From: a virus
Direction: 5' to 3' (one strand)
Length of the DNA stretch: 51,473 bases
Virus record (IMG/VR): IMGVR_UViG_3300046007_014013
Coordinates: 1 to 51,473 of that record
The translations under genes and the position numbers were made by a program. The notes below the pieces were generated by a model. It made no database searches. It was not told the origin of the DNA and saw only the letters and a list, made by a program, of their open reading frames with translations. This document shows, piece by piece, positions 10,458 through 51,473 of the stretch. The first letter of the stretch is position 1; each line of letters begins with the position of its first letter.

Positions 10458-11171
10458 TTATGAGTAAGGGTCGACCCAAGTAAAGGAAGTCCCTTGCAAG
10501 TGAGCGGTAAAGGAATACTTTTTAACTTCGTTGTAACTACCGGGCTGGCTGTAGTCCGTAATTAAAATAGCCGCTTCAATAATTTCGCCGTCTGGATAGA
10601 CAGCGTAGAAATACAATTCGCGTCCAAAATAGCCGCCATTTCTTTGGGTTTGCTTAATAAGCTGTAGCGCAGGATCTCCGCCAACTGGGGAATCGTAATG
10701 GTTTTCTACGCCAGAGAATTGGATGGTTCTATCGCTACGGATGGCCTTTTTCTCAGTTCCAGTGCCACTTAAAGTATTGGTTGTGTCCACTGTGGTTGTT
10801 TGAGCGGCCAAGGGGAACTCTTGAATCCCGTACATGGGGAGCAAATCATCAACAATCCTTGCTGTACTTGCGGTAGCGATCGCGTATTTTGAACTAAAGA
10901 TGGGAATGTCAGTCGCTGTAGTCGCTACGGTCACATCTTCCGAAATGAGGACATAAGTTCGCGCTTTATCCCCATCCTTGAAGAAGGATAGTGCCATACC
11001 TGCTTTTAAGTCTGTCGCTACAGAAGCAGTACAAGTAATTACGGTCGCGCCAACAGCGACGGCTACTGTAGACGTAAGAGTTCTTGCGACTACAGTTCTT
11101 GTGCCTTTGGGCAATAGTAAGATTCCTGCACTAAAACCCTCTAAAGATGTAGTGTTGTAAGCTAAAGGCAT
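10458..11171 (-). CDS. Major tail tube protein (237 aa)
   Basis: The sequence is rich in Ala, Thr, Ser and Val with alternating beta-strand pattern (TVAVAVGATVITCTASVATDL), then a conserved-looking C-terminal part with GGYFGRELYFYAVYPDGEIIEAAILITDYSQPGSYNEVKKYSFTAH. The wording EVKKYSFTA.. near the end is typical of siphovirus tail tube proteins, which make the hexameric rings of the tail. Length is normal for the family. It lies directly before the chaperone and tape measure genes, as expected. The ATG follows an A-rich stretch with AAAGGA upstream. Confidence 0.78.
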   Translation of the reverse strand: MPLAYNTTSLEGFSAGILLLPKGTRTVVARTLTSTVAVAVGATVITCTASVATDLKAGMALSFFKDGDKARTYVLISEDVTVATTATDIPIFSSKYAIATASTARIVDDLLPMYGIQEFPLAAQTTTVDTTNTLSGTGTEKKAIRSDRTIQFSGVENHYDSPVGGDPALQLIKQTQRNGGYFGRELYFYAVYPDGEIIEAAILITDYSQPGSYNEVKKYSFTAHLQGTSFTWVDPYS

Positions 11172-20611: not shown

Positions 20612-21913
20612 TTATTCCTTCCCTGCGCCCGCACTTAACTGTTGATTTTGGGTTGATTGGTTTTGAGCTTTCATTAAAAACTCTTGTCCGTTAACTGCCC
20701 AAATTCCCCAATCTAATTCAAAGCCACCCCTTTTAATGACATTTTCATAGTACGATTCATACCCGAATTTCATGCAATACTCTAGGCTAATGCACCACTT
20801 AACCTGAGTTCCGACCAACCCTCGCAAAGCTTGGATATTTCTTGAGTACATCAATGCGGGTTGGTTAGCTATATCCTTACCTGAGTTTGATTCCATTCCC
20901 AACCCTGGGAAAAACCATAGCGGTACGCCAGGCGGCACTAACTCTTCCCTAAGCTTCATCCAATAATCAAAAACGCCCTTAAGACTTTCATTACCATTAC
21001 TATAAGCTTTTCTTACGTCAGCTTTATTTAACAAGTAAAGGTTGGAAATTAAGCCTTGTGCTAATTGCGATTTATGCTCAAGCATATAAGCTTCTTTGTA
21101 TTCTTCATCCGCGCCTTCGGGCATGAGATGAAGCCAAGGAGAAATTGCGGCGGCTCGGACAGCTTGGGCGACATCTGGACGGTGTTCTTTTAAGTATTCG
21201 TAAGCTTCAACTGACTGTAAAAATAAGGAGTCGCCATACCTTCCTGAAGCTCCTAATTCTTCATATTTAAAATGCAATATTTTCCAATCAGGAAATACCC
21301 TATCGTCAGGACTTTCGCTAATCATTTTCCTTTGTGAATAAGTTCCTTTTAGTTCCCCTTCACTATTTACATCCACAAACATAGAGAAAGTTGGGAGGTA
21401 TTGGATTTTTTCTATAAAGTAATCTTTCTTATTTTTACTGTCGAAGTTTAATCCTAATTCTGCAAAACTATCGCCAAACCTCAGCATCCTCCTTACGCCT
21501 GGCTCTAAGGCATTACCTCCTAGAACTAAATCTTTTCCAAATTGCCTTGATGCCATTTCTTTACTTACACTAATTAAATTTTTATCTACTTCTACGTCAT
21601 CCATCTTAGGGTTAACTTTCCAACTACGAACTTCGCCATTTTCTCTAATAAAAACATCCCTAGCTAAAATACTACTAGAGTGTCGTACCTCTAGATTCCA
21701 TATTGACATCTCTATCAATTGGTGAGTTAAATAGCCATCCCCCATAATTGTTCTAACGGGAATTTCCGGTAATCCTAAGCTTAAATTCCTCTTAGAAGCT
21801 AGACCTAAGCGTAAAGACTCAGAAGATCCTGTAAATCCTCTGGGTTTTCTTATCCTTGCAAGGATTTGCGTGAAAATGTTTTTTACTCTTTGGAAAAAAT
21901 TAATACTAGGCAT
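20612..21913 (-). CDS. Portal protein (433 aa)
   Basis: Forms the dodecameric portal through which DNA enters the capsid. The wing/stem region reads DWKILHFKYEELGASGRYGDSLFLQSVEAYEYLKEH, the usual portal motif in which a returned beta strand is followed by YG.S.... Other features: GFTGSSESLRLGLASKR near the N-terminus, and a C-terminal helix with YSRNIQALRGLVGTQVKWCISLEY. A longer start at 21961 is in frame, but the extra 16 residues lie over the plus-strand promoter at 21940, so I prefer ATG 21913; neither has a good ribosome site. Portal is separated from the large terminase by a 6.4-kb plus-strand block. Confidence 0.8.
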   Translation of the reverse strand: MPSINFFQRVKNIFTQILARIRKPRGFTGSSESLRLGLASKRNLSLGLPEIPVRTIMGDGYLTHQLIEMSIWNLEVRHSSSILARDVFIRENGEVRSWKVNPKMDDVEVDKNLISVSKEMASRQFGKDLVLGGNALEPGVRRMLRFGDSFAELGLNFDSKNKKDYFIEKIQYLPTFSMFVDVNSEGELKGTYSQRKMISESPDDRVFPDWKILHFKYEELGASGRYGDSLFLQSVEAYEYLKEHRPDVAQAVRAAAISPWLHLMPEGADEEYKEAYMLEHKSQLAQGLISNLYLLNKADVRKAYSNGNESLKGVFDYWMKLREELVPPGVPLWFFPGLGMESNSGKDIANQPALMYSRNIQALRGLVGTQVKWCISLEYCMKFGYESYYENVIKRGGFELDWGIWAVNGQEFLMKAQNQSTQNQQLSAGAGKE

Positions 21914-21939
21914 AATTTTTATTTTTTTACTTTTGGGAC

Positions 21940-21968
21940 TTGACGACGGTATATAAACCATGTATTAT
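21940..21968 (+). promoter_or_regulatory. Promoter of the ACGGTA family for the methylase operon
   Basis: TTGACG at 21940 and TATTAT at 21963 with a 17-base spacer that includes ACGGTA. It lies 36 bases before the ATG at 22005. Confidence 0.7.
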
Positions 21969-28021: not shown

Positions 28022-28459
28022 ATGACAAAACAACAATGGCTGCTTTCTCAAATTGAACAATTCCCTGAACTATCTCCCAGGGAATTAACTTCATACCTCA
28101 ACGATAAAGTATTAGTAGATAATCCAGTGCCAATAGGACAAGTATCTGTTGTACCTACAGTAGAAGAAGTATCTACCATAGTGACAGATAGTGAAGTCTT
28201 AGCTATAGCTGAAAGTCCAGTCTATTTAAGGATATTAGATGCAATTAATCAGAATCGACCTGATTGGATTGTTGGCAACTTAACAACATTAAAACGTGGT
28301 GGCAAACTAACCCAAGCAAGTTTTGATGCAATTTTAGTATTACTTCAAAGGACTCAACTAGACCCTAATTATCAAGAGCAAATAAGTATAAGCCCTGCTG
28401 AATTGGCAGGGCATGGGGTTATTTTAGTTAGTGATGTTGAGGAATTATTAACTCCCTAA
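28022..28459 (+). CDS. Hypothetical protein behind the fibre genes (145 aa)
   Basis: MTKQQWLLSQIEQFPELSPRELTSYLNDKVLVDNP then ESPVYLRILDAINQNRPDWIVGNLTTLKRGGKLTQASFDAILVLLQRTQ. Helical, with a GKLTQASFDAIL hairpin like short phage structural or chaperone proteins. It overlaps the terminase gene tail to tail by 12 bases. Could be a fibre assembly factor. Family not recognised. Confidence 0.6.
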   Translation: MTKQQWLLSQIEQFPELSPRELTSYLNDKVLVDNPVPIGQVSVVPTVEEVSTIVTDSEVLAIAESPVYLRILDAINQNRPDWIVGNLTTLKRGGKLTQASFDAILVLLQRTQLDPNYQEQISISPAELAGHGVILVSDVEELLTP

Positions 28460-29962
28460 ACTTCCCCCAAATACTAAATTCTGGGATAAACAAGAATGTG
28501 CGCCACTTCCCCCGTCTACAACATCATTTGTGGGCGGGGTTTTTCTACTGCCGTCAAAAGCATCCACGTAAGATAAAAAGTCATCATTCCACCAAGCTCT
28601 TAGTATTTTTATCTTCCCGCTCCTAGCATCCATAGCCCAGGGTTTAGCCCGGGTTAATTTATCGCCAAGAGGTTGGACTCCCTTACAATTACACTCAGGC
28701 AAAGCTTTTTTGATTGTCCTAATTAAGCTTTGTTCATGTCTCCTTGACGCTGAACCGCCCTCTAACTCCCACCGTTGCTTAACTTTTTTACCATCCGCCA
28801 CGGCCATCGTTACGATTTGGTTATCGCCCTCTTCTGCTCCTAACTGTTCCCAGTAAACATCTAAGATGTAATATTCATACTCTCCCGTAAATTTATTTTT
28901 AACTTTCATCCATTTCTGGGATGCACTAAAGCATGAGGATGAAGAGGCAACTTCTTTAGCTGTACTGGCCAAATCCCAAAACCTTAAAAATTGGGCAGAA
29001 GTTAAATCCATGCTGCTTAACTGTTCTTGATCTATTATCTCAAACCACGAACGGTTAAAGACTAATCCTGCCGACCATTTAATCTTCCAATTACCTTTAA
29101 GCAATCGCTCCATGTCAACATTAAGTAATGAAAGTAAATTAGCTTTGTAATCAGGGTTTTGGCTTAAGAGAATCTTATTGTCGTCTAAGGTTGCACTAAT
29201 AAAAGTTAAGGATTTTGGCGGCGCAATTTTAGCTAATTCTGGGAATTTAAGCATTAATTCTTCTGCGGAATCTCCCCAGTGAATAACGTTATTTAAGCGG
29301 TAAAAGTATCTTAAAACGCCTGACCTTTCTTCGATAGGGTATCCCGTCGTAGGGTTAATATACCAATCAATTAATTTAGCTACCCACGAATCTGCGTCAG
29401 GGTTACAGGTTGCATCAATCCTTGGCTTAACTCCGCACGTACTTCTATTTCTTGAAAATAAGAACCAAAATTGTTTTTCGGTAAATTTATTTAACTCATC
29501 AAAGCCAATATAGGCTATTTGCGCTCCGGGGAATTTATTCTCTACGTCTTTTTCATGTTGAGCGTGACCAAAGCTAATAGCTGCGCCGCTGGGAAATTTC
29601 CAATCTAATTTACCCTCTCTTGGAATTGCACCAGGGACTAAGCCAAATAATTTCTTAGACTCATCCCATAAACCACCCTCTGTTGTTATTTCAGGCGAAG
29701 TCCGGCGGAAGATTACCGCACCATAATTAGGGTTATCAATATTAATTAAAGACTTCCTTAACAATGCCCACGACTTCCCGCCTCCGCCGGCTCCTCCATA
29801 TATGCACACATCAGCGCGCGTATTTACAAAGCTTGTTTGCTTTCCAGGCTGTGGATCTGGAAGGGTAAAAGTTACCGCATTATTCTTAGCTTTTTCGTTA
29901 ACCTTGGACTTTAATAAAGTTGTTGGTGCGCCACTTAAAAAATCTTTTCTTTTGCTTCCCAT
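28448..29962 (-). CDS. terL: Terminase large subunit (504 aa)
   Basis: Packaging motor ATPase and headful/cos nuclease. Walker A GGAGGGGKS (~56-64), Walker B IAYIGFDE with Asp155-Glu156, coupling region RIDATCNP (~181-188), nuclease motif FLRFWDLAST with Asp330, and late acidic/His region DVVDGGSGAHS. Length is normal. Start ATG 29962 follows AAGGA. The large terminase is separated from the candidate small subunit (33908-34549) by 4 kb of plus-strand genes and from portal by 6.4 kb, whereas these genes are usually adjacent. Confidence 0.93.
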   Translation of the reverse strand: MGSKRKDFLSGAPTTLLKSKVNEKAKNNAVTFTLPDPQPGKQTSFVNTRADVCIYGGAGGGGKSWALLRKSLINIDNPNYGAVIFRRTSPEITTEGGLWDESKKLFGLVPGAIPREGKLDWKFPSGAAISFGHAQHEKDVENKFPGAQIAYIGFDELNKFTEKQFWFLFSRNRSTCGVKPRIDATCNPDADSWVAKLIDWYINPTTGYPIEERSGVLRYFYRLNNVIHWGDSAEELMLKFPELAKIAPPKSLTFISATLDDNKILLSQNPDYKANLLSLLNVDMERLLKGNWKIKWSAGLVFNRSWFEIIDQEQLSSMDLTSAQFLRFWDLASTAKEVASSSSCFSASQKWMKVKNKFTGEYEYYILDVYWEQLGAEEGDNQIVTMAVADGKKVKQRWELEGGSASRRHEQSLIRTIKKALPECNCKGVQPLGDKLTRAKPWAMDARSGKIKILRAWWNDDFLSYVDAFDGSRKTPPTNDVVDGGSGAHSCLSQNLVFGGSLGS

Positions 29963-33865: not shown

Positions 33866-33909
33866 AATATCCCTAACCTTATTTAATTTAAGGTTAGGGA
33901 TATTTTTTT
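33866..33909. terminator. Bidirectional hairpin terminator
   Basis: AATATCCCTAACCTTA / TAAGGTTAGGGATATT arms with A-run before and T7 after. Serves the plus-strand zinc-finger gene and the minus-strand gene at 33908. Confidence 0.8.
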
Positions 33910-34549
33910 AGCCATAGTTAATGTCAGTTAAAGTTATATCTGTAATCTCTTCACTGTTTACAGTAATGGTATTGTCTAAAGTTTCCAAAAGTCTTGCAAC
34001 GTCCAAAGCTTCATTTAAATTACGTAAAGATTGCTCGCCACAAGCATTGCCAGCGGCTACGATATTTCTCAAATCTTGCGATCGCATATTCTCTAATAAG
34101 TCTGGATTATTCTCATAATTTTCCAAAACTTTCTTAGCAATATCCAAACACTTTTGAGATACATCTAAATTAGACCAGCCTAGAATCTCACTTCTTTCTC
34201 TATAACGCTGTAATTTATCTATATGGGAAGAAATTTCTAATGCTTCTGCGTGCTTACGCTTTTCTAATTCTATATATCTGTCATACTCTCTAAGTCTTTC
34301 TTGCCAGAAACTTTTCGTACTCCAATCATTCATCTGTTGGGAATAGCTTTTGATAGATTTTTTAAAAGCGATCGCTACTTTCTCAAAAGTTCTTCTTATA
34401 CCCATATCACGGTAGCACATAAATGCTTCATAGCTCTTGCTGGTGTCTATTCCGGGCAAATAGTCCCACACATTCACATTCAATTCTAAAGCTACTGCGT
34501 GACATCCTTTAGCTAAAGCTTCTTTATTGTAAGTAATATGAGCGGGCAT
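33908..34549 (-). CDS. Probable terminase small subunit (213 aa)
   Basis: YEAFMCYRDMGIRRTFEKVAIAFKKSIKSYSQQMNDWSTKSFWQERLREYDRYIE matches the helix-turn-helix plus W..R...YDR pattern of phage small terminase-like proteins. The C-terminal half is helical and acidic, as in oligomerising TerS. AGGAGAAGGAG upstream of ATG 34549 is a strong ribosome site. It is on the same strand as TerL and upstream of it, but 4 kb of plus-strand genes lie between. It should recognise the packaging start site. Confidence 0.68.
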   Translation of the reverse strand: MPAHITYNKEALAKGCHAVALELNVNVWDYLPGIDTSKSYEAFMCYRDMGIRRTFEKVAIAFKKSIKSYSQQMNDWSTKSFWQERLREYDRYIELEKRKHAEALEISSHIDKLQRYRERSEILGWSNLDVSQKCLDIAKKVLENYENNPDLLENMRSQDLRNIVAAGNACGEQSLRNLNEALDVARLLETLDNTITVNSEEITDITLTDINYG

Positions 34550-37230: not shown

Positions 37231-40200
37231 ATGTACGCTAACTTAAATTTAGAAGCAATTAAAAGTCTAAAATCATCTAACCCTGACTTAAGTTTATTAA
37301 GTGAGTTTAAGGGCTGGGGATCTCTTAAAGATTGTTTTGCCGAAGGGCATAAAGATTACCAGGAATTAAAAGACCTGTTAACTGCCGATGAGTATGAACT
37401 TGCAAAAAGTAGCATTCTAAACGCCTATTACACAAGTAATGAGGTAATAAGCGGTTTATGGGATAAGTTAATTACCGCAGGTTTTACCGGCGGGAAAGTT
37501 TTAGAGCCGTCCTGCGGGACTGGTAAATTCTTAAGTTTATGCCCTTTAAAAAATAATGTTGAGTTTACAGGAGTAGAATTAGATCCTATTCCCGCGCAAA
37601 TAGCGGGGTTACTTAACCCAAATAGTAAGATTTATAACAGTCCTTTTGAGGAAGTTTCATTCCCTGACAATTATTTTGATTTGGTTATAGGTAACGTGCC
37701 CTTCGGGGCATATAAGGTACATGACCCGCGCTACAATGCTTTGGATTTAAGTATACACAATTACTTCATTGCTAAATCTCTAGATTTAGTTAAGGAAGGC
37801 GGCGTGATATGTCTTATAACTTCGCCATATACCCTAGACTCAAAAAATACTAATTTTAGAGAACGGTTAAGTAAACGCAGTGAGTTAATCACGGCTTTTA
37901 GACTTCCCAGTGAAGCATTTAAAACTAGCAGTAATACAGAAGTTAGCGCAGATGTACTAATCCTAAGAAAAAATAATAATGGCGATGAGTTAAAAAACTG
38001 GATTAATACTTCAGAGTACCCTTACTCTGAAGTACAATTTTTTCCCAATACTACATACAGGTGTGACATAACTTGCAACGAGTATTGGATAAACGAACTG
38101 CAAGGCCGCGCTAGGGAACAGTTTTCGTTTAATCCTAAATACCTACCTCCCTGGAAATTATTAGGACTGCCAACTGTAAATAAATTGTATGGACATGGTT
38201 TATCATGTTCGGACAATAAGGGTAGTTATAACTTTTTAGAGGGTATTAAAAATGTACCTGTTCCCTCAAATTTATTTAATTTATTAGAAATTAAAAAAGA
38301 TGAGGTAATCTTAATTCCCTCTGAGTTACAAAACTCCAAACTTAATTCCTTTGTAATTCATAATGATTTAGTTTACGTCCGTGAACAGGATGTTTTAGTA
38401 AAATCCCAAATTAACATAGACAAGGTAAAGGCTTTTAAATCCCTACATACCCTTACTTTAGACGTAATAAATGCCCAAAAACATCTTGTAGATAACGAAT
38501 TAAGTCACATCCAAAATCACCTTAAAAATAGTTATGATAACTTTAAATGTGCGTATGGTGAGTTAAATTCTCAGAAAAACGTCAAAGAACTGGGTAATGA
38601 CCCTGATTTTTACTTAGTTAGAACTTTAGAAAAAACTAAGGGAAAGAAGGTAATAGGATTAGCTGATATTTTCTCACGTCGCGTTATAGCTAAATTCTCT
38701 AATGATGCAGCACCTAAAACGGTAGAAGATGCTATTATTCTTAGCTTAAATAAGTTTGGGAATTATAACTATAAGTTCATGGCAACTTCCTTAAATATCA
38801 ATAAGGAAGAATTAACTACTTTAATGGTAGATAAAGGTTTAATTTACTTTAACCCCAGTATAGAGGTTAACGACTATGAAGAGAAAGACAAATACCTTAG
38901 CGGTAACGTTTACGCTAAGTTGGTTGATGCGATTAAATATGACTTAAAAAATAATGTAGAGGCACTTAAAAAAGTACAGCCTCTTCCTATGCTTCCAACC
39001 ACAAATGAAGATATTAAATTTAAATGTCTTTTGGAATTGGGTATTAACTGGGAAGAGTTACCGACTGAAGTACAAAACCGCATATTCTCAAAGAGAATTG
39101 ATGCGAAAATAGGCGCAAGTTGGATACCGCCGCATATTTATTCTCAATTTTGTTATGAACGGTTAAACGCACAAGGTATGGTTAGTGTTTCATACATAAC
39201 CTCACCCGTGGCTACTTGGTACGTTGAACCAAAGCGTAGTAGTGATTACTCAGAATTTGGTACGAAACATCTAAGTTCGTATGAAATACTTGAAAAAGTC
39301 CTGAATAATCAGAATATATTTGTCGGTATATATAGCGACAAAGAAGTAAACAGAGAGGCCTCAGTAGTAGCCACAGAAGAGGCACGGGCTAAAGCTTCCC
39401 TTATAAAGCAAGAATGGAAAGACTGGTTGTGGTCTTCTGAAGAAAGATGTGTCTTACTTTGCAAGATTTACAACACAGAAGTTAACGTTTACACTGCAAG
39501 AAAATATGATGGTTCGTGGCTAGAATTGCCAGGACTTAACCCAAAAATTAAGCTGAGACCTTGGCAGTTAAACGCGATCGCAAGAATAATTGAAAACCGC
39601 GCCACATATTTAGCGCACGACGTAGGGCTAGGTAAATCCCTAGTAATGATCTGCGGAATTATGGAGTTAAGAAGGCTGGGAATATGCCATAAGCCGATGT
39701 TAGTTTGCCTTAATGGCACGGAGCAACAACTCTATAATGACTTCAAAGACGCATATCCATTAGCTAATATCCTTATCTCAAAAGGATTAAGTAGTAAAGA
39801 AGATAAGAAACTCTTTACTGCCAGTATAAAAACTGGTGATTTTGATTGCGTACTCCTTACGCATTCCCAATTCTTCCAACTTTCACTTGGTAAAGAGTAC
39901 CAAGTACAATTCCTGGAACAAGAAAGGGAACTTTTGCTTAATTTCATTAATTCTGATAGGGAATTACAAAACCCTAAATCAGTAGGTGGCAAAATCTTAA
40001 AAAAACGGCTAGAAAGTGTGGAAATGAGCATTTTTGATGCTGAAAATCCAGAACTTAATAATTTAACTGTAGTAAGTGCTGATAGTGGGAAAAATGCTAA
40101 GGGTAAAAAACTCACCCGCGCCCAAAAAGAGGAAATAAGGAAAGGTAAGAGTATTGACGCGCTTAATTTAAAGATTTTAGAGTCAAAAAGAAAATATGAT

Positions 40201-42957
40201 CACGTTACATTTGAGGGCATAACTGATTGCCTAGTCATTGACGAGGTACATCAATTTAAAAACCTCGCAGTTATAACCAAGTTAATGAACGTGCGCGGTA
40301 TTCCTACCTCGCACTCACAGCGGGCTACCGATACTTACACTAAAATCCTTTACACTTTAGACAATTTACTTAATAAAGCGGTTAAAAACAGTGTAGGAAA
40401 CGGCAGGGTTATTGGTGCAACCGGTACGATATTTTCTAACACCCTAGCTGAAATTTATAACTGGCAGCGTATGTTCCAATTGCCCTTACTTAAGGAACTG
40501 GGCATAGATGCCTTTGATGCTTGGGTTAGTCAATTTGCGGAAGTTGTATCTTCGGCAGAAATTAGCCCGGAAGGCATTTACAAAAGCAAAACGCGGCTCA
40601 AAAAATTCTCAAATCTAAGTGTTCTACATAACACTATGTCGCAATTTGTAGATATTGTGACTTTTGATATGATTGGAGCTAAGGCTGGCCGTGAACACGG
40701 TTTAATTAGACCAGAGGGTAAATTCATAGACATAATTGCCGCGCCCTCAAATAGACAGCTAGAATTTTTAAGCGGGGCATTAAAACGAGCCGAGGCTATT
40801 CAGAATGGCGATGTAGATCCTACTGAGGATAATTTCCTTAAGTTAACCACAGACTTAACAAAAGCCGCTTTATCTATGCGGTTGTTAGGCGATAAATCAG
40901 AAGCGCGTGAAAGTAAGCTACATGACGTAGCTTATAATATCCATAAAATTTGGTTAGAAACCAAAGAATTTAACGGAGTACAGTTAGCTTTCTGTGACTT
41001 TTCTACCCCAAAAAACACAGTTAAGACCAGCGCAAAAATTAAGAATTTATTAATTAATAACGGAGCTAATAAAGAGGACGTTAAGGAATTAATGAAGAGT
41101 GGGGACATTGAAGCGTTAAGTTATGCTTTACCAGAAGAATTACCTTTACTTACGGAAGAGTTAATACTTAAGTTAAAATTAAGTAAATTTTTAATTCCCC
41201 AAATTTCCTCAATTATTGAGGCGGGTAAGAAAATCTCATATAACGTTTACGAATACATCAAAAGTTTATTACTTTTGCTTGGCATACCAGAACATGAAAT
41301 AGAGTTCATTCATGCTCACAACGGTGCGAAAAGAAGTAAATTATTTGACAAAGTTAATAATGGTGAAGTTCGTGTACTGTTAGGATCAACCTCAAAACTA
41401 GGAACAGGCTGCAACGTCCATAAAGGTGGTTTGTGGGCATTACATCACATCGATGCGCCCTGGCGGCCATCAGATATCGAGCAACGGGAGGGGCGAGGTA
41501 TTCGCCAATTAAATGGCGAAAATTTAGGGAAAACTCTCGGCGCGGTATTAGTCTTTAGATACATCACAGAACGCTTAGACGCATTAAGATGGCAAACACT
41601 CCAGTGGAAGCAGGAAGCTACAAAAAGCTTCCTTAATGGCGCGATTGACAGTCTAGAAGATGTTGACGATGTTTGCGTAACATTCGCACAGGTCAAAAGT
41701 TTAGCTACTGGCAATAAGCTTTTAATTGAGGAAGCTAATTTACAAAATGAGTTAAATTCCTTACTCATACAAGAAAGAAGTCACTCCCAACAACAACTAG
41801 GTATAACTGGCGAAATTTCCCGCGCCTCTAATAAAATTAAGTCCATTTTAGAAAAAATGGACGCGGTAGAAATTGACATTAAATCCCTAGCGGAAACCGA
41901 AAGATTAACCCGCAGGATTAGTGAGGAAGAAGAGGAACTACAAGCAAAAATACAAGGTGATGAAAACGACTTAAATGGACTAAAAGCTTTATTAGAAAAA
42001 GCTACTACTGCAAAAGATGAAAAGTATGTAGAAATTTACTCCAATGCAATTAATGAGAGTAAATTAAGAATCAAAGAATTAAAAACTAAGGTTAAAGAGT
42101 TTTTAACAGAAGAGGATAAGGTACAAGAAGCAAAACTAAAACAAGAAAGTAATGCTATATCTGCCCAATTCTCTTTATTAAGTAAGGATGCCGGGATAGC
42201 TCACGGCACTACTAGGTTGGCAGGGTCATATCGTGGACTAGAAATTTACGCTACCAACTTTGGCAGCAGTTTAAATTACGCGATTGAGAGTACGTATAGT
42301 AAAAAGAGTTATGGATTCCCATTTAGAGTTTCACAAGATAGGTTAATTACCCTTAACCGCACTAATCCCCTACAAAGTTTAGATAAGTGGGTAGATGAGT
42401 TACCCCACTACTTAAAAAGGCTAGAAAACGAGCTAGAGGGAGCAAAAGTCGAGCTTAACCGCTCGGAAAGCATCAAGGGCAAAATCTTTTACGGTTTGGG
42501 AAAACTGAATGAAGTGCAAGTTAGGCTAATGGAAATTAGAGAAATAATGGCTGACAATAAGAATGTTTTAAATGTTAATCATGGCGATCGTGAGGGGGAA
42601 AATGAAAATAGCGCGGAAGAGTATTTAGAAGATGATTTATCATCAACCGAGGTTGGGGTAAATTTGGAAATAGTGGAGGAATTAAAAAACCTCACTTTTG
42701 AAGATTACTGTAGTGAGAAAAATATTCCCGATTATGTTAGTAACATAATCGCGCCACAACTAAAAGAGTTAAGAATTATTAAACTTACCCGCAGCCTAGA
42801 GGTGAGTTGTCAAGAGAACAACCTAATGAGGGTTGCCTTAATTTACAAGTCTTGTAAGGACTATCCAGAACACTGGATAAAGGCGTTAAAAGCCTTAAGC
42901 TTAGACAATAAAAAGATCTGCATTAAGACTTTGGCAAAATTAAAAGCTGTGGCTTAA
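37231..42957 (+). CDS. DarB-like N6-adenine methyltransferase-SNF2 helicase (1908 aa)
   Basis: Residues ~40-260: methylase with motif I KVLEPSCGTGKFL (~90) and motif IV-like GNVPFG (~155, in place of NPPF/Y). Residues ~770-1450: superfamily 2 helicase with ATP loop HDVGLGKSL (~797), motif II VIDEVHQF (~1000), motif III GATGTI, motif V LGSTSKLGTGCNVH (~1387) and motif VI QREGRGIRQ (~1416). Residues ~1470-1720: coiled coils. C-terminus helical. Such very long fused methylase-helicases occur on plasmids and phages; P1 DarB, carried in the virion, protects DNA against type I restriction. An antirestriction role is inference. ATG follows AAGGA. Bidirectional terminator downstream. Confidence 0.82.
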   Translation: MYANLNLEAIKSLKSSNPDLSLLSEFKGWGSLKDCFAEGHKDYQELKDLLTADEYELAKSSILNAYYTSNEVISGLWDKLITAGFTGGKVLEPSCGTGKFLSLCPLKNNVEFTGVELDPIPAQIAGLLNPNSKIYNSPFEEVSFPDNYFDLVIGNVPFGAYKVHDPRYNALDLSIHNYFIAKSLDLVKEGGVICLITSPYTLDSKNTNFRERLSKRSELITAFRLPSEAFKTSSNTEVSADVLILRKNNNGDELKNWINTSEYPYSEVQFFPNTTYRCDITCNEYWINELQGRAREQFSFNPKYLPPWKLLGLPTVNKLYGHGLSCSDNKGSYNFLEGIKNVPVPSNLFNLLEIKKDEVILIPSELQNSKLNSFVIHNDLVYVREQDVLVKSQINIDKVKAFKSLHTLTLDVINAQKHLVDNELSHIQNHLKNSYDNFKCAYGELNSQKNVKELGNDPDFYLVRTLEKTKGKKVIGLADIFSRRVIAKFSNDAAPKTVEDAIILSLNKFGNYNYKFMATSLNINKEELTTLMVDKGLIYFNPSIEVNDYEEKDKYLSGNVYAKLVDAIKYDLKNNVEALKKVQPLPMLPTTNEDIKFKCLLELGINWEELPTEVQNRIFSKRIDAKIGASWIPPHIYSQFCYERLNAQGMVSVSYITSPVATWYVEPKRSSDYSEFGTKHLSSYEILEKVLNNQNIFVGIYSDKEVNREASVVATEEARAKASLIKQEWKDWLWSSEERCVLLCKIYNTEVNVYTARKYDGSWLELPGLNPKIKLRPWQLNAIARIIENRATYLAHDVGLGKSLVMICGIMELRRLGICHKPMLVCLNGTEQQLYNDFKDAYPLANILISKGLSSKEDKKLFTASIKTGDFDCVLLTHSQFFQLSLGKEYQVQFLEQERELLLNFINSDRELQNPKSVGGKILKKRLESVEMSIFDAENPELNNLTVVSADSGKNAKGKKLTRAQKEEIRKGKSIDALNLKILESKRKYDHVTFEGITDCLVIDEVHQFKNLAVITKLMNVRGIPTSHSQRATDTYTKILYTLDNLLNKAVKNSVGNGRVIGATGTIFSNTLAEIYNWQRMFQLPLLKELGIDAFDAWVSQFAEVVSSAEISPEGIYKSKTRLKKFSNLSVLHNTMSQFVDIVTFDMIGAKAGREHGLIRPEGKFIDIIAAPSNRQLEFLSGALKRAEAIQNGDVDPTEDNFLKLTTDLTKAALSMRLLGDKSEARESKLHDVAYNIHKIWLETKEFNGVQLAFCDFSTPKNTVKTSAKIKNLLINNGANKEDVKELMKSGDIEALSYALPEELPLLTEELILKLKLSKFLIPQISSIIEAGKKISYNVYEYIKSLLLLLGIPEHEIEFIHAHNGAKRSKLFDKVNNGEVRVLLGSTSKLGTGCNVHKGGLWALHHIDAPWRPSDIEQREGRGIRQLNGENLGKTLGAVLVFRYITERLDALRWQTLQWKQEATKSFLNGAIDSLEDVDDVCVTFAQVKSLATGNKLLIEEANLQNELNSLLIQERSHSQQQLGITGEISRASNKIKSILEKMDAVEIDIKSLAETERLTRRISEEEEELQAKIQGDENDLNGLKALLEKATTAKDEKYVEIYSNAINESKLRIKELKTKVKEFLTEEDKVQEAKLKQESNAISAQFSLLSKDAGIAHGTTRLAGSYRGLEIYATNFGSSLNYAIESTYSKKSYGFPFRVSQDRLITLNRTNPLQSLDKWVDELPHYLKRLENELEGAKVELNRSESIKGKIFYGLGKLNEVQVRLMEIREIMADNKNVLNVNHGDREGENENSAEEYLEDDLSSTEVGVNLEIVEELKNLTFEDYCSEKNIPDYVSNIIAPQLKELRIIKLTRSLEVSCQENNLMRVALIYKSCKDYPEHWIKALKALSLDNKKICIKTLAKLKAVA

Positions 42958-43023: not shown

Positions 43024-44436
43024 TTAAAAGTTTATAGGTTTACCATTAAAATGTTCTTGAATAGTATGGGGATTAAACCATGCTGGTAAAGTTTTTTCTA
43101 CGTCTTCTAAATTATTTCCGTCGCTATCTACCAACCCATATCTAATAACTACTCTTTGTAATGGGGTTTCACCATTTGCTGAGAATTTTTGAACTAAGAT
43201 CATGCCCGCTTTGCGAGTATCTTTAGTTCCTTCTGCGAAACTGCTGTTGGTGTCGTTATGGGTTATCCCTAGTAAAAAACATTTAGCTTTTCTTGTGTCC
43301 GTTAAGCTTAACTTAAACCATTTATCTGCTAATTCTCCAATCAGTCCGCGCAGGTTTGTAAACTCATCTACAATAACTTGTAATTTATCTTGGGGTTTTT
43401 GCTTAATTCTGTCACCCCAAAATAAAATATTATCTTGCATGGTTATAGCAATATCTTCTTCTATTTCCGCTATGTTTTTAGGCTGTAAATATTTCCAAAC
43501 ATCGGCATTATCTCCGGTCGCGTGTCTGTCTATTAAATATTCAATTGGTGCATCTAGGCAATATTTTCTAACTAAGGAAATAGTGCAAGCCGTGTAAGTT
43601 TTCCCACTTCCCTGGTTTCCTATTAGCCATAGTGGCTTTAAACTGCTAATAATTGTCCATAGCCATCCGTCTTCATGAGATTTTAAAGCATCTATTAAAT
43701 CTAACTTTTTATTTTCTTTGGGATTTTCCTCAGTTTTATTTTTGCCCTTATCCTTACTTAATTCTTTGGTTTTTTTATTTAACTCTAATATTTCCAAGTT
43801 ATTCTTAGCGGTTTCTTTTTCTAGCTCTGATAATTGGAGTTGGTGATTTTTTAAAGCTAGTTGTCCCTCTAAGTTACCTCTTAAATTATCCAGTTCTAAT
43901 TCCCTTCCTGATTTTAAAGAGCTTAGGGTAGATTGTGCATCCCTACTGATTACATTTTTAGTAACTTCGGCTTGTGCATTTTTACTAAACTCATAAAGAC
44001 TTATATGAGTTTGCTCTAAAATGTCATTCTCTATTGCCTTAATTTTAAGGATTTTAAATTTTGAGTGTATCGCCTCTTCCTGAACGTTAGTTAAAGTCCT
44101 ACTAACACAAAAACTTAAAAACAAGCTAACGCTGCTTAACAACCCTAAACTAATACCCAGCCCATCTTCCGGTGCAAGGACTTTTAAAACCTTAATATTG
44201 TCGTCAAATATTTTATTTCTTCTTTCACGATCTACTAAAAAGCTAATTCCACGCTTTACGTTATATCCATAACAATTTACGCCCTTAGTGCAATATAAAG
44301 TTTCTTCATGCTTAATTGAATCAGAAAACATGGGAACGCTAAACATTAAACCCGCCGCTAAAAATCCTCCTATTAATAGTGTGTTAGTCTTACGCTGTTT
44401 ATTTAAGTTTTCTGTAAAATCTTTTATTTCTTGCAT
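43024..44436 (-). CDS. Membrane-anchored P-loop ATPase (470 aa)
   Basis: Two N-terminal membrane segments (LLIGGFLAAGLMFSVPMF ~20-37; GISLGLLSSVSLFLSFCVS ~93-111) flank a ~50-residue segment with two Cys (YCTKGVNCYGYNV). Residues ~120-250 are coiled coil, then an ATPase with Walker A LIGNQGSGKTYTA (~273) and Walker B LQVIVDEFTNL (~353), followed by LLGITHNDTN (sensor-like). The core resembles the FtsK/HerA/VirD4 and Zot groups of motor ATPases, but the arrangement fits none exactly. It ends a seven-gene cluster with three other membrane proteins, so it may power a membrane complex for DNA transfer, secretion or virion release. Confidence 0.72.
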   Translation of the reverse strand: MQEIKDFTENLNKQRKTNTLLIGGFLAAGLMFSVPMFSDSIKHEETLYCTKGVNCYGYNVKRGISFLVDRERRNKIFDDNIKVLKVLAPEDGLGISLGLLSSVSLFLSFCVSRTLTNVQEEAIHSKFKILKIKAIENDILEQTHISLYEFSKNAQAEVTKNVISRDAQSTLSSLKSGRELELDNLRGNLEGQLALKNHQLQLSELEKETAKNNLEILELNKKTKELSKDKGKNKTEENPKENKKLDLIDALKSHEDGWLWTIISSLKPLWLIGNQGSGKTYTACTISLVRKYCLDAPIEYLIDRHATGDNADVWKYLQPKNIAEIEEDIAITMQDNILFWGDRIKQKPQDKLQVIVDEFTNLRGLIGELADKWFKLSLTDTRKAKCFLLGITHNDTNSSFAEGTKDTRKAGMILVQKFSANGETPLQRVVIRYGLVDSDGNNLEDVEKTLPAWFNPHTIQEHFNGKPINF

Positions 44437-44441: not shown

Positions 44442-44594
44442 TTACTTTAAAACTCCTGTTTGCTTAAGCCACATTAAAAAACTATTAATTGAATATACAA
44501 TATCCGAAAACTCCATCACTAGATAATGGATAAAAATAGCAGTAACTAGACCGCTAATAAATAATTCAATAAACCCCTTAATTAATTTAATCAT
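44442..44594 (-). CDS. Small membrane protein (50 aa)
   Basis: MIKLIKGFIELFISGLVTAIFIHYLVMEFSDIVYSINSFLMWLKQTGVLK: one clear membrane helix and a second amphipathic helix. It overlaps the stop of the upstream 195-residue gene (ATGATTAA) and lies 6 bases before the ATPase start, so translational coupling is likely. Size and topology resemble small phage-type or secretion accessory membrane proteins. Confidence 0.6.
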   Translation of the reverse strand: MIKLIKGFIELFISGLVTAIFIHYLVMEFSDIVYSINSFLMWLKQTGVLK

Positions 44595-45174
44595 TATCTC
44601 TACTTGTGCCTCCAAAACTTTTCTTAATTATTCCTAATGCAACGATGCCAATTAAAGCAATTAGAATACTTATGCCTATTTCGGGCATAGGTAATTGAAA
44701 ACTTAACCCTTCTTTGTCCCTAATCTCTTGATAGGTTAAGTTAATATTTTTTTTAGTTTCTACCACTTCCTTAGTTATTTTACTCGTTCCTTGCCATGTT
44801 GTGATTCCGCCAATAGCTAATTTTACAATTCCCACTAAAGGCTTTTCTCCTAAGCTAAACTCCCATGACTCTGAGTTAATGGAAAAATTAAAGCTATCAC
44901 CAACGTCAATTAGTCCTGGTAAAAGACTTAATACGGCGGAAAAAACTTGTATTACACTTAAGGTAATTTGTAACTGGAACAAAACCCACGACAAAGAACA
45001 TGAAGAAATTTGGCAAGCTAAAAATAATAACCCTGCATCAATCCTCTTTCTTTTTAAGATATCTTCATAAAGTTTTTGTTCAATGTGTGTTAAATATCTA
45101 GAGGTTTCTTTAGGTAAATTTTCCCCTTCTAAACCGTCTTCTTCCTCGTTAAAATCTGGCGGATATGCTAACAT
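44587..45174 (-). CDS. Multi-span membrane protein (195 aa)
   Basis: Acidic cytoplasmic N-terminus (NEEEDGLEGENLPKE), helices at ~47-66 and ~70-90 (LLFLACQISSCSLSWVLFQLQ, LSVIQVFSAVLSLLPGLI), a ~70-residue loop, and a C-terminal helix (IGISILIALIGIVALGII) followed by basic residues. Probably a membrane partner of the ATPase. No family recognised. Confidence 0.65.
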   Translation of the reverse strand: MLAYPPDFNEEEDGLEGENLPKETSRYLTHIEQKLYEDILKRKRIDAGLLFLACQISSCSLSWVLFQLQITLSVIQVFSAVLSLLPGLIDVGDSFNFSINSESWEFSLGEKPLVGIVKLAIGGITTWQGTSKITKEVVETKKNINLTYQEIRDKEGLSFQLPMPEIGISILIALIGIVALGIIKKSFGGTSRDND

Positions 45175-45247: not shown

Positions 45248-45922
45248 TTAAAATCCTAACGCACCCATAAATTCTTTAAGCCGTCCCTTAATGCCTTGTC
45301 CTGTATACTCCTTATGGGAGATTAAATCCACTCGCGCATCATTACCTTTCGTTAAATATTCATCCACTAATTTGCCCTTATATCTCTTTTCTTCTTGGAC
45401 TTGTTTAACTTCGGGGCGTAAGGTTTGGTTTAATACAGCGTCATTCCTATCAACGTCCACTAAAAAAGCATCCATATAACCCTTAACTTGTTGGTAATTA
45501 AGCGTATAGGCATGGCGAGATACTTCCGTACTTTTATCAGTTAAATATTGCTTGGCTTGCTCTACTCTACCATTAACGAATTTTCTGTCAGCCAGTGCCG
45601 TCCCGTCCATAGCTTTAGTTATTTTTAAAGATGCGCTACCACTAGCCTTTAAAATGTCCGCTAAGGCTAAATTATAAGTTTCCGTGCCTTCAATTATTGT
45701 GAGGTAAGCTTCTTTTAATTTAGGAGCATACTCCCTCATGAAATTTGCTTGCTTGTTTAATTCTCCTATTCTTTGGATATGGGGGAGACTGCCCATACAA
45801 GCTTTTTCAAAATCAGCTATGGTTATGCCGAACTTACTGGACATTTGGGCATTTAAAGCTTTTCCCTTAGAGCTAACATGGTTTTTTATCTTAACGTCTC
45901 TTGCTGGGCGTAAATTAGTCAT
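45248..45922 (-). CDS. Helical protein of the membrane-ATPase cluster (224 aa)
   Basis: Starts MTNLRPARDVKIKNHVSSKGKALNAQMSSKFG. Nearly all helical, basic overall, no membrane segment, with regular heptad-like runs (AEQAKQYLTDKSTEVSRHAYTLNYQQVKGYMDAFLVDVDRN). Similar in shape to structural or scaffold proteins of secretion or virion systems. No family recognised. ATG start lies 7 bases after the previous stop. Confidence 0.6.
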   Translation of the reverse strand: MTNLRPARDVKIKNHVSSKGKALNAQMSSKFGITIADFEKACMGSLPHIQRIGELNKQANFMREYAPKLKEAYLTIIEGTETYNLALADILKASGSASLKITKAMDGTALADRKFVNGRVEQAKQYLTDKSTEVSRHAYTLNYQQVKGYMDAFLVDVDRNDAVLNQTLRPEVKQVQEEKRYKGKLVDEYLTKGNDARVDLISHKEYTGQGIKGRLKEFMGALGF

Positions 45923-45928: not shown

Positions 45929-46135
45929 TTATTTAACCTCTATGTAAATATTGGGGTCTGAGTAAAACCTATAGACAGGCTTAATTATTTTTTTATTAGA
46001 AATTAAGCCGAGAGAGTTTAGTAAAGCTGCACCTATTATTAAAGTTAAAATTAACGTGGGGTTAATTTTAAAGCTTAGGTTTTTATGCTGGGGTCTTAAA
46101 AGCTTGGGATATTCTTTTAAAGTCCATCGCACCAC
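45929..46135 (-). CDS. Small single-span membrane protein (68 aa)
   Basis: One membrane helix (LILTLIIGAALLNSLGLI) and a short outer tail (KPVYRFYSDPNIYIEVK). The only usable starts are GTG codons at 46135/46132, giving a 53-base overlap with the upstream gene, which is unusual. The coding nature of the membrane part is supported by tight spacing to the next gene. Confidence 0.5.
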   Translation of the reverse strand: MVRWTLKEYPKLLRPQHKNLSFKINPTLILTLIIGAALLNSLGLISNKKIIKPVYRFYSDPNIYIEVK

Positions 46136-46775
46136 CCTTTAAAATCTCGTTAACTTTATTTAAGCCGCTTTTTAACTCTTGAGAATTTTTATTAAGTCCA
46201 GATGTGGCCACTTGGGTAATTTCCTCCATCGCGGAGGCTATTTTTTGGGAATTAGCTTGAACTTTATAATTAATAAAGTTAATGACTGCGGTTTTAATCT
46301 CATCTAAAGTTTCCTCAAGGTTATCGGAAGATGTGTTAATTTCTTGGGCAACTAAATAAACCTCTTCCGGCGTTAAAGTTACGCCCATTTCCTGCGCCGC
46401 ACTTTTTATTAATTCCCCCTTATTTTCTTCCTCTTCTTTACTTTCTTGGTTAATTAGCTTGTAAATTTCCTCCCGAATTTCATCTTCTGAGGTTAACGCC
46501 TCTAGTGCATTTAATTGGATGGGGGTTAAGTCTAAGAAATACGTCTTGCTAATTTCTAAGGCTTTTTCTCTAGCGTTAAAAATTACCAATTCTCCCCCGC
46601 TAAAAAAATTAAAAGCCGCATCCATATCTTCCTTAGAAAATTCTTCTTTCTCTAAATCCAGGGAATTAAAAAAATCCCTAATTTCCGGCAAATCCTTCTT
46701 AATGGATTTTTTATTAAGCCTCGATTGAACTCTTTTCGCAGCTACGTCCGATGTGACCTTAACATTACTTGCCAT
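46083..46775 (-). CDS. Acidic coiled-coil protein (230 aa)
   Basis: MASNVKVTSDVAAKRVQSRLNKKSIKKDLPEIRDFFNSLDLEKEEFSKEDMDAAFNFF. Helical throughout, very acidic middle (EDEIREEIYKLINQESKEEEENKGE), and a C-terminal amphipathic repeat region (LNKNSQELKSGLNKVNEILKGG). Overlaps the upstream HTH gene by 11 bases. No family recognised; likely a soluble part of the same machine. Confidence 0.6.
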   Translation of the reverse strand: MASNVKVTSDVAAKRVQSRLNKKSIKKDLPEIRDFFNSLDLEKEEFSKEDMDAAFNFFSGGELVIFNAREKALEISKTYFLDLTPIQLNALEALTSEDEIREEIYKLINQESKEEEENKGELIKSAAQEMGVTLTPEEVYLVAQEINTSSDNLEETLDEIKTAVINFINYKVQANSQKIASAMEEITQVATSGLNKNSQELKSGLNKVNEILKGGAMDFKRISQAFKTPA

Positions 46776-47214
46776 TTACTTTTAATTCCTCTGTTTGTTT
46801 AGCTTTATAAATTAAAGCCACAGCCACTAGGGGCAATACTGTGGATTTGTCGTAAAATTTCCCCTTCCTGAACCCTCCGATATTTTTAAACCACCTGCTT
46901 ACCGTACTTTGGTTGGGGTAAATTTCATAGTCCTTTATTAATGTTAAAAACTCCCCTCCCGTCATGCCCTTAAACTCTTTCAGATTGGGGATGGTTTCCC
47001 GTCCCATAGCCTGTAATTTTTCCTTAATTTCAGCGTATTTGCGGAAATATCTAGGACTTACTTTTCTTAAATTAATTAAAATTACAAACCCTTCTTTAGT
47101 TAAGGGTAATTCACAAGCTTTCAAAGTCTTTTTAGTCTTAGACCAATGCGAATCCGAACACCTCCCGTTTAATAAAGTTTCGTAAATTGCTCTTTCTGTA
47201 TCAAGTTTTTGCAT
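46765..47214 (-). CDS. Helix-turn-helix regulator-like protein (~149 aa)
   Basis: Preferred start ATG 47214 (MQKLDTERAIYETLL). An upstream in-frame ATG at 47250 lies inside an inverted repeat and is less likely. Residues near 100-118 read YEIYPNQSTVSRWFKNIGGF, a helix-turn-helix-like segment with the second helix STVSRWFK. First gene of the membrane-ATPase cluster. The inverted repeats at its 5' side fit autoregulation. Confidence 0.6.
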   Translation of the reverse strand: MQKLDTERAIYETLLNGRCSDSHWSKTKKTLKACELPLTKEGFVILINLRKVSPRYFRKYAEIKEKLQAMGRETIPNLKEFKGMTGGEFLTLIKDYEIYPNQSTVSRWFKNIGGFRKGKFYDKSTVLPLVAVALIYKAKQTEELKVNGK

Positions 47215-47345
47215 AAAATACGGCGCACCCCCCTTATTTAGTAGTCGCATCCTGCATAAAAAGGGTGCAAGGTTTAAATTTGAAAAATTTTATGCAGGAT
47301 ATAAGACCCTTAATTTAAGGTCGCACCCATGTAAAGACCTTTAAA
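47215..47345. promoter_or_regulatory. Operator-like repeats upstream of the membrane-ATPase cluster
   Basis: A perfect 13-bp inverted repeat ATCCTGCATAAAA / TTTTATGCAGGAT spans 47249-47300. TTTTATGCA recurs at the start codon (47214). GGGTGC/GCACCC occurs three times (47225, 47263, 47333). These are likely binding sites of the HTH protein. Confidence 0.6.
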
Positions 47346-48179: not shown

Positions 48180-48375
48180 TGGGAAAATAAAACGTCAGAC
48201 AAAACTACCAAAAACGCGATCGCAAAAAAGTAATTTGGGCAGCACGTCAGATAGTTTTCTTTACTATAGGGATTTTGTCTGACGCTTCATATAACTTTAC
48301 ATAATCAAAAATCCTCCAAATCTTTATACAGTAAGATTTTGGAGGATTTAGTGTAATTTACTTGACGATTGGGAC
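48180..48375. repeat. TGACG repeat island C2
   Basis: CGTCA/TGACG at 48193, 48245, 48280 and 48363, a HIP1 site at ~48216, and hairpin AAATCCTCCAAA / TTTGGAGGATTT at 48309-48349. 48246-48283 (GTCAGA...TCTGAC) is the inverted relative of 35794-35836. 48351-48367 matches the left part of island A. Confidence 0.7.
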
Positions 48376-49210: not shown

Positions 49211-49244
49211 TACCTTCTCTCCCGTTACTTTTTAACTTACTCCC

Positions 49245-50119: not shown

Positions 50120-50152
50120 CAGCAAATCCTCTTACTTTTTTAACTTACTCCC

Positions 50153-50181
50153 ACTATACATTATCCCTCTACCGTTGTCAA
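50153..50181 (-). promoter_or_regulatory. Promoter of the ACGGTAG family (minus)
   Basis: TTGACA, spacer ACGGTAGAGGGATAATG (17), TATAGT and the GTTAAAAAAGTAA leader; drives the HicB-like gene. Confidence 0.8.
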
Positions 50182-50187
50182 GTACCT

Positions 50188-50262
50188 TTCCTAAATTTCC
50201 CAAATTTAGCCAACTCCTTAAAAATAAATTTTTGCCAAATTTAGCCAAATTTTTTAATTTGC
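50188..50262. repeat. parC-like iterons upstream of parM
   Basis: Short direct repeats based on CCAAATTTAG: CCTAAATTT (50190), CCAAATTTAGCCAA (50200 and 50235), CCAAATTT (50245), ending near the parM promoter. In ParMRC systems the ParR-binding centromere lies in this place. Confidence 0.6.
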
Positions 50263-50265
50263 CCC

Positions 50266-50295
50266 TTGACCGACGGTATGGATGTATGGTATAAC
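50266..50295 (+). promoter_or_regulatory. parM promoter, ACGGTAG family
   Basis: TTGACC at 50266, TATAAC at 50290, 18-base spacer GACGGTATGG.... The leader contains AAAAAGTAAGTTAAAAAGTAA. Confidence 0.75.
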
Positions 50296-50322
50296 TTAAA
50301 AAGTAAGTTAAAAAGTAAGGCA

Positions 50323-51405
50323 ATGAAGACATATATAGGACTGGACGCAGGACACAATAATTTAAAATTAGTCTTGCAAGATGAAGGTCAGGAAAATATA
50401 GAGAAGGTAATTATGCCGTCCTATATACTTTTGCAAGAAAGTTTATTCTCAAAAAGTTCATTAAAAACTCCAGGACTAGTCCGTTATTTAGATGGGACTA
50501 GGGAAGATTTAAAAAATAAAGCTTGGTTAATGGGTGCGGCTGCAATTGAAGCTAACGAAAAAGCTTCCGTCCCACTCGCGGCCGTAGCAGACGGAAATGG
50601 AAAAGTCGAATATTGCCTTCACAGTCTTTTAAGTTTGTTGAGTAATTTTCCCCCGCGAGAAGGTTGGGATATTATTTTAAGTTGTTCCAACCACCGAGCC
50701 GATGTCTACGGCAAGGTAATTAAAAAATCCTTAGAGGGATGGCACAAAGTGTCCTTAGCAGGAAAAGAAACTTTAGTCAACGTTACTGTGGCGGACGTTG
50801 TAGATGAGGCAACTCACTATAAGCCTAAAAATAGTGGAGGGGACGTTGTGCTTTTAGACTTTGGTGGAGGTACATCCATATTCGTTAAGTACAGTGCCCA
50901 AGGAATTAACGTCGCCAGGGAAGTCGTTGATGTGGGAGTAGACGACTTAATTAACTTAATTTACGATGACAAAGAAACATACTCATTACTCCACAAGGAC
51001 AGGTCAAGGCACGAAATTAGGAAAGGTCTGGAAAACTCCAAAGGGGATAGAGTTTTCTATGGACTAGAAGGTAGGGGAGGCATAGAAATTACGCCAATTT
51101 ACATCCGTAATTTAAAAACTTGGTTAAGTGCATATATGAAAGATATCCTTAGCCTTACGAGTAAATCTTTACGCGCTGGCGCAACATTGCAGCTAATTGG
51201 TGGAGGATCACTTCTCCCTAATTTAGAAGATATCCTTACGGCAATTCTTACGCGGGGCGGTAAAGAAGCCCATACGATTAATAAAGTTACGAAAATAGCC
51301 TTATGGGCTAATTCTTTAGCTTTATTAGAGTTAAGCAAAGCCTACAAAATTAAAAACTTTAGCAAGAGCAAGATTTCATTAGTTAGCGTGAGGGTAGCTG
51401 AATAA
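50323..51405 (+). CDS. parM: ParM-like plasmid-segregation actin ATPase (360 aa)
   Basis: Polymerises to push sister plasmids apart. Actin-fold motifs: phosphate 1 YIGLDAGHNNLKL (~4-16), connect/phosphate 2 VVLLDFGGGTSIFVKY (~184-199), adenosine motif LQLIGGGSLLPNLEDI (~287-302). An in-frame upstream start would begin inside the -35 box, so ATG 50323 is the true start. Stop TAATG overlaps the next ATG. Length is typical for ParM and related Alp proteins. It marks the element as a low-copy plasmid at least in part of its life. Confidence 0.85.
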   Translation: MKTYIGLDAGHNNLKLVLQDEGQENIEKVIMPSYILLQESLFSKSSLKTPGLVRYLDGTREDLKNKAWLMGAAAIEANEKASVPLAAVADGNGKVEYCLHSLLSLLSNFPPREGWDIILSCSNHRADVYGKVIKKSLEGWHKVSLAGKETLVNVTVADVVDEATHYKPKNSGGDVVLLDFGGGTSIFVKYSAQGINVAREVVDVGVDDLINLIYDDKETYSLLHKDRSRHEIRKGLENSKGDRVFYGLEGRGGIEITPIYIRNLKTWLSAYMKDILSLTSKSLRAGATLQLIGGGSLLPNLEDILTAILTRGGKEAHTINKVTKIALWANSLALLELSKAYKIKNFSKSKISLVSVRVAE

Positions 51406-51473
51406 TGAAAGATTACGACAGAGTAAGTTTACCCCCCGCACTAGCTAAAGCTCTCCACACCCACATCCAAAGT
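51405..51473 (+). CDS. Start of a ParR-like gene (partial, 23 codons)
   Basis: MKDYDRVSLPPALAKALHTHIQS, cut by the window edge. It overlaps the parM stop by one base, as adaptor genes do in ParMR operons. The VSLPPALAKAL.. pattern would fit a ribbon-helix-helix N-terminus, but too little is visible to confirm. Confidence 0.5.
   Translation, partial: MKDYDRVSLPPALAKALHTHIQS

Follow-up and report, generated by a model that had tools for sequence, protein, structure and literature searches.

Genes of the window

The window, i.e., the whole stretch of DNA analysed here, is IMG/VR virus record IMGVR_UViG_3300046007_014013 at its full length of 51,473 bases. It encodes the structural and packaging proteins of a tailed phage, one of the marks by which a phage-plasmid is recognised, and has a ParM-family gene at its right end. 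That terminase, portal, capsid and tape measure lie on the same molecule as ParM had been stated in an earlier note on this DNA, and the junction is backed by shared repeats. The minus strand encodes a tape measure protein (3..8987), recognised by size, position and make-up, which is cut by the record and measures 4255 aa in an overlapping contig (G011); a major tail protein (10458..11171; PHROG 820, weak); a fused head-maturation protease and major capsid protein (13372..15783; family search); a portal protein (20612..21961; weak family match, 39% identity to the Cr-LKS4 portal); a terminase large subunit (28448..29962; family search); and a terminase small subunit (33908..34549; PHROG 6299). 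The plus strand encodes a DarB-like methyltransferase-helicase of 1908 aa (37231..42957), with an 88% match on IMG/VR contig 3300042897_001672. Two DNA methylases are encoded in the window. The siphovirus type of the phage is predicted from the great length of the tape measure and from a tail tip protein resembling lambda J that an overlapping contig encodes (PHROG 31, E 2.5e-120).

The phage encodes replisome proteins (DnaE, RecJ) and nucleotide-synthesis enzymes (thymidylate synthase, dCMP deaminase, ribonucleotide reductase). The reductase gene (15879-19262) is of class II (B12-dependent) and is split by an intein with a LAGLIDADG domain. A protein gene at 31402-33267 contains internal 75-nt repeats and is rearranged between records at 32-33 kb, near which several assemblies break. 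A TPR protein (48410-49210) is built of similar 126-nt repeats. The small ORF at 49337-49546 looks ribbon-helix-helix-like by eye, gave no Pfam match above cut-off and contains an A run, after which another frame continues.

Related records and genome extent

Neither the window nor any of the eight records joined to it has end repeats that would mark circularity; the tape measure gene is cut on the left and the gene after parM on the right, and the window is therefore most likely a fragment of a larger phage genome. A query with the portal protein yielded 13 further IMG/VR loci that were 99-100% identical over the best segment. Eight of these 13 records were fetched and aligned to the window, with 97.4-99.2% mean DNA identity (pieces of at least 500 bp). 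The longest, G011 (72,697 bases), extends 37,752 bases beyond the left end of the window and brings the known part of the phage to about 89.2 kb. All eight aligned records end on the right by window position 34.2 kb; a query with the small terminase subunit yielded four more records, which continue the right side.

One record from another sample (L053) tracks the window to 43,013 at 86% identity and then carries a different gene where a block of plasmid-like genes begins in the window; the arm with ParM may therefore be accessory in the phage population, and position 43013 is likely a cargo-swap site between phage variants. L053 (near its left end) and the window (at 43013) have a common terminator hairpin after the DarB-like gene, followed by unrelated genes. 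Pattern searches of limited reach found no other IMG/VR record with ParM or the five-gene block.

Partition genes and candidate parC

The gene at 50323..51405 (plus strand; ATG at 50323, stop at 51405) encodes an actin-like ATPase of 360 aa. It matches Pfam ALP_N (E 3.2e-5; 24.6 bits, just under the cut-off of 26.3) and PHROG 691, 'partition protein' (E 7.7e-8), and a profile made of this protein and eight plasmid homologues, run against solved structures, matched ParM/Alp proteins (3js6, 5e-10; pCBH ParM, 6e-7; Alp12, 9e-7). The protein carries GLDAGHNNLK, LLDFGGGTS and LIGGGS, which we take to be the phosphate-1, phosphate-2 and adenosine motifs. A structure prediction of the protein alone reached a pLDDT of only 34 and was not used. 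The actin-like component of a ParMRC system is present: by Pfam, PHROG and the solved-structure profile, the ParM actin of the earlier note is a real ParM-family gene.

Relatives of this ParM were found on 35 plasmid records at 27-30% identity. The 30 ParM-bearing plasmid records listed are all cyanobacterial and nearly all from Nostocales, and the hosts among the matches listed are mostly Nostoc, Scytonema, Tolypothrix and Calothrix. A tblastn search of 50,697 phage records gave no ParM match, even at E 0.01.

A second gene, of which the record end leaves only the start (51405..51473, plus strand; 23 residues within the window), begins with an ATG at 51405 that overlaps the ParM stop codon (TAATG). 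In type II partition systems, ParR is a ribbon-helix-helix protein whose gene comes directly after parM. The 23 residues can be aligned, weakly (22-35%), to the beginning of the post-ParM gene of each of the eight plasmids compared; six of these eight plasmid genes gave no Pfam match when scanned. The coupled downstream gene that had been claimed is thus borne out by the TAATG overlap and by a start that resembles, weakly, the ParR-position genes of Nostocales plasmids, and we infer from this that it is a candidate ParR. The plasmid partition system expected of a phage-plasmid is represented by ParM, with the 23-residue start at the ParR position.

Upstream of the parM promoter a 14-bp sequence, CCAAATTTAGCCAA, occurs twice without mismatch and in the same orientation, at 50200 and 50235 (50200..50248), 35 bp apart. 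Shuffling produced as much in 4 of 2000 trials for 50185-50265 and in 1 of 2000 for 50185-50322, and neither the rest of the window nor the left arm of G011 has a further copy. Classical parC sites are arrays and larger than a single CCAAATTTAGCCAA pair. The TTAAAAAG repeats are not parC-specific, since they also occur in the leaders of other phage promoters. Of the parC-like repeats of the earlier note, one specific 14-bp CCAAATTTAGCCAA pair stands as a weak candidate for parC, whereas the others belong to a phage-wide promoter leader.

Replication protein on overlapping contigs

The search for rep genes outside the window that had been proposed was positive. On overlapping contigs of the same phage, in the left arm of G011 and 9.4-12.9 kb left of the window, a gene encodes a replication protein (Rep) of 1169 aa that carries an N-terminal DUF3854 (2e-31) and exceeds the cut-off of the CyRepA1 family NF042913 (353 bits; cut-off 200). 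The gene is intact in two records, G011 and G012 (99.3% in the latter); the plasmid-type Rep expected of a phage-plasmid is found outside the window, on these overlapping records. No contig has both Rep and ParM, and the two are linked only via a shared core of 97-98% identity. Genes of the IS605-type TnpB and TnpA-like kinds were seen just upstream of the CyRepA1 gene (G011 22652-24422, L027).

The Rep matches 234 plasmid records; in 67 of them the match covers 80% or more of the protein (best E among the matches listed, 3e-146). It is colinear with a plasmid Rep of Tolypothrix PCC 7601 over about 1050 residues (32%). By tblastn against the 50,697 phage records it matches 46, none over at least 80% of its length. 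In Synechocystis, according to the available part of the report, pSYSA depends on CyRepA1 to persist as a replicon of its own (PMC9978351).

A control scan included two cyanophage helicases and one plasmid Rep. The helicase of Leptolyngbya phage Lbo402-yong5 (L136) passes the CyRepA1 cut-off at 292 bits, so that the CyRepA1 domain alone is no proof of a plasmid; that of a Nodularia phage stays below at 131 bits. Among the three controls, DUF3854 was found in the plasmid Rep only, both phage helicases being without it. It is the full architecture of DUF3854 and CyRepA1, not the CyRepA1 domain, that points to a plasmid. The name 'plasmid replication protein CyRepA1' can fall on phage proteins without DUF3854.

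Five-gene block

To the right of the DarB-like gene, five minus-strand genes (43024-47250) encode proteins of 161 aa (46765..47250), 230 aa (46083..46775), 224 aa (45248..45922), 195 aa (a membrane protein, 44587..45174) and 470 aa (43024..44436; membrane segment, coiled coil and P-loop, assigned by eye). Homologues of the five stand in conserved order on small Nostocales plasmids, e.g., pANA03 and pANACY.03. The 470-, 195- and 224-aa proteins occur at 12 of 12 block-bearing loci, the 230-aa protein at nine and the 161-aa protein at seven (tblastn). On plasmids, the block often has a gene of primase type (DUF3987, VapE or PriCT-2) in divergent orientation beside it. The 470-aa protein is 63% identical to its counterpart on pANACY.03 and 71% to that in Anabaena sp. 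UHCC 0204; its profile gave no match better than E 0.05, all being to signal-recognition-particle and coiled-coil proteins, and a structure prediction from a 5-sequence alignment (pLDDT only 42) was not used. In PADLOC the only defence match of the block is a weak one of the 230-aa protein to ZorA. We take the block as a putative plasmid backbone module.

Promoter family and origin of the right arm

A family of phage promoters has the consensus TTGAC(N0-2)ACGGTA, an extended -35 element. Sites were noted, e.g., at window positions 21940, 30400, 34690, 48160, 49262, 50170 and 50268, and also in G011; a regulator of the phage may act at these sites. The member of the family at 50266..50322 (plus strand) is the parM promoter, with TAAGTTAAAAAG leader repeats downstream, as they are found downstream of other members. 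A copy of a shared promoter/leader element (repeat family D7) lies at 50129..50184 on the minus strand, with further copies at 48119-48174 and 49221-49276. A terminator/intergenic element at 48246..48370 is 87% identical over 126 bp to G011:4238-4362.

Since a contig of another sample departs from the window exactly at 43.0 kb, since the block there is plasmid-like and since the 43.0-kb junction is confirmed by no second record, an assembly chimera has to be considered, with phage sequence to about 43.0 kb and a cyanobacterial plasmid from 43.0 to 51.5 kb. The repeats of the ParM arm argue against it, being shared with the phage and not with hosts or plasmids. Two family promoters were counted in window 1-43013, three in the 8.5-kb right arm, one of which precedes parM, and five in the G011 left arm; the controls had two in 403 kb (20 plasmid or plasmid-like loci) and none in 426 kb (seven host contigs). 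With a -10-like hexamer downstream the counts are one in window 1-43013, three in the right arm, five in G011 and none in plasmids or hosts. Window 19999-20067 matches the promoter region of parM at 77% identity. The stretch around 48246-48370, with its 87% counterpart in the phage left arm, gave only six matches in 388 host-order genomes, all of 37 bp or less. The tetranucleotide profile of the right arm is nearer most phage parts (0.61-0.67; DarB region 0.48) than plasmids (0.40-0.57). Given the promoter counts and the absence of the 48246-48370 element at length from host genomes, it is very probable that the ParM arm is phage DNA and not a chance join with a plasmid; the chimera that the earlier note had named as a counter-explanation appears very improbable.

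Integrase search, relatives and host

No tyrosine or serine recombinase (PF00589 or PF00239) was found in any of 18 phage records, which together hold about 89 kb of distinct phage sequence from an incomplete genome. This extends the earlier observation that no integrase is visible, and the integrase that would have spoken against a plasmid prophage was absent from these records. Of the proteins scanned, none could be assigned to a repressor family, and a single Myb/HTH protein has a weak excisionase/regulator match.

Relatives of the portal protein occur in 7 of 388 genomes, all distant, and relatives of the large terminase in 6 of 217. The portal search of the 388 genomes found no host isolate carrying the phage; a scan of genome contigs with two portal patterns had given no match. 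On plasmids, no portal relative was found in PLSDB. Judged by eye, phage genes give way to chromosomal housekeeping genes in two distant relatives (G341:C42 and G042:C75); these contigs were rejected as phage-plasmids because host genes follow the phage genes. One chromosomal large-terminase relative adjoins a serine-recombinase-like ORF (named by eye), and a phage contig (G274:C186) has an integrase match below cut-off. ParM was found in none of the seven portal-bearing genomes, in a search without a positive control of its own; a single-sequence ParM search was positive in 5 of 6 other genomes. The CyRepA1 genes of the relatives lie on contigs other than the prophage contig. ParM and Rep thus set the phage apart from its integrating kin, which are without ParM and have CyRepA1 elsewhere.

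Nostocales (Anabaena-like) are the best-supported host group, given the plasmid homologues of ParM and the 71% identity of the 470-aa block protein to that of Anabaena sp. UHCC 0204.

Proposed lifestyle

Partition, plasmid-type Rep, plasmid block and lack of an integrase, taken together, favour plasmid lysogeny: the phage is, on balance, probably a siphovirus of Nostocales, no smaller than 89 kb, that persists as a low-copy plasmid when a prophage. The presence of Rep and ParM in one genome, and the plasmid state itself, we infer from the sequences. CyRepA1, with its primase-like DUF3854 and its helicase, would start replication of the extrachromosomal form; ParR, translationally coupled to ParM, would bind the repeats upstream of parM, and ParM filaments would push sister copies apart at cell division. 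An integrase would not be needed in the plasmid state. On induction, the DnaE polymerase, the nucleotide-synthesis genes and the terminase would serve lytic growth and packaging. The P1-like plasmid prophage of the earlier note is in this way strengthened by the Rep on overlapping contigs, the lack of an integrase and the negative chimera test.

An obligately lytic phage with captured plasmid genes, in which CyRepA1 would act as replicative primase-helicase and ParM would space or move replicating DNA within the long filament or would itself be accessory cargo, would suit the virulent-style set of DnaE, RecJ, thymidylate synthase, dCMP deaminase and ribonucleotide reductase, the CyRepA1-domain helicases of other cyanophages, the lack of a recognised repressor among the proteins scanned and the many near-identical metagenome contigs. 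We nevertheless consider it rather unlikely, as the Rep has a DUF3854 that the two phage comparators lack and matches plasmid Reps over its length, as ParM and its coupled gene form a segregation module of no obvious lytic use, and as the five-gene block is of plasmid origin. Still less probable is an ordinary integrating temperate phage with ParM as a passenger and an integrase beyond the 89 kb seen: the phage genome is incomplete, two distant relatives run into chromosomal genes, and large-terminase relatives are chromosomal, one beside a serine-recombinase-like ORF, but recombinases are absent from all 18 records, and the relatives have their CyRepA1 off the prophage contigs and ParM in none of seven genomes.

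A bolder form of the plasmid-prophage reading, possible though on the whole doubtful, is that of a Nostocales siphovirus lineage that is a true plasmid prophage, copied by a captured CyRepA1 and segregated by ParM along the multicellular filaments. The ParM arm and the block would then be an accessory 'plasmid life' island, read from the promoter family of the phage and exchanged where the DarB gene ends, and members of one phage population would differ in their ability to persist in cells.

Comparison with known systems

P1 and N15 are tailed phages with partition and plasmid replication genes, without integration and with proven lysogeny. The phage resembles them in carrying both kinds of plasmid gene and in probably not integrating; they differ in their ParA/SopA-type partition, other Reps and proven lysogeny, which here is proposed, with no repressor recognised. 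With type II ParMRC systems it shares a ParM-family actin, and the coupled downstream gene and the repeats upstream of parM are candidates for their ParR and parC; it has one 14-bp repeat pair, an incomplete candidate ParR gene and only about 30% identity to Nostocales plasmid ParMs. The CyRepA1 plasmids (pSYSA, Tolypothrix, Nostoc), as far as the available parts of the reports describe them, likewise have a Rep of DUF3854 and helicase, colinear at about 32% (PMC9978351, PMC10079941); here a Rep of this kind is encoded by a phage, alongside capsid, tail and DnaE.

The nearest precedent is Microcystis phage Mic1, a siphovirus of 92.6 kb with ParABS for which, in the text available, P1/N15-like lysogeny was proposed (PMC7156551). 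Both are freshwater cyanobacterial siphoviruses of similar size with a plasmid partition system. Mic1 differs in its ParABS and Microcystis host, and the available text (PMC7156551) mentions no CyRepA1 Rep, whereas here the partition protein is an actin-type ParM and the best-supported host group Nostocales. The statement of the earlier note that such elements are little known in Nostocales has to be weighed against Mic1, which already has ParABS; literature searches listed no report of a cyanophage with ParM. A phage-like plasmid of Microcystis NIES-298 is also a cyanobacterial plasmid with phage gene content, but is described with one putative tail gene, and the main text mentions no terminase (PMC12510456). 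More widely, phage-plasmids with ParA/ParB were reported from glacier viromes (PMC4490671), and 5,712 IMG/VR records were classed as phage-plasmid-like (PMC13221032), as given in the accessible parts of these sources.

Phage persistence in bloom-forming filamentous cyanobacteria is poorly known, and a Rep combined with actin-type partition offers a concrete, testable case. In this phage a kind of cyanobacterial plasmid Rep whose function has been studied probably goes together with actin-type partition, and its genes show gene flow between Nostocales plasmids and phages; plasmid genes beside capsid genes suggest life in the host as a plasmid, not killing only. The Rep, the ParMRC genes and the promoter family are parts usable for trial in Anabaena sp. 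PCC 7120.

Regarding other cyanophages, kinship of the large terminase with that of Cylindrospermopsis phage Cr-LKS4 was rejected, the two giving no BLASTP match. Cr-LKS4 and RM-2018a differ from the present phage in that neither has a ParM match; they resemble it in the portal protein, at 39% identity.
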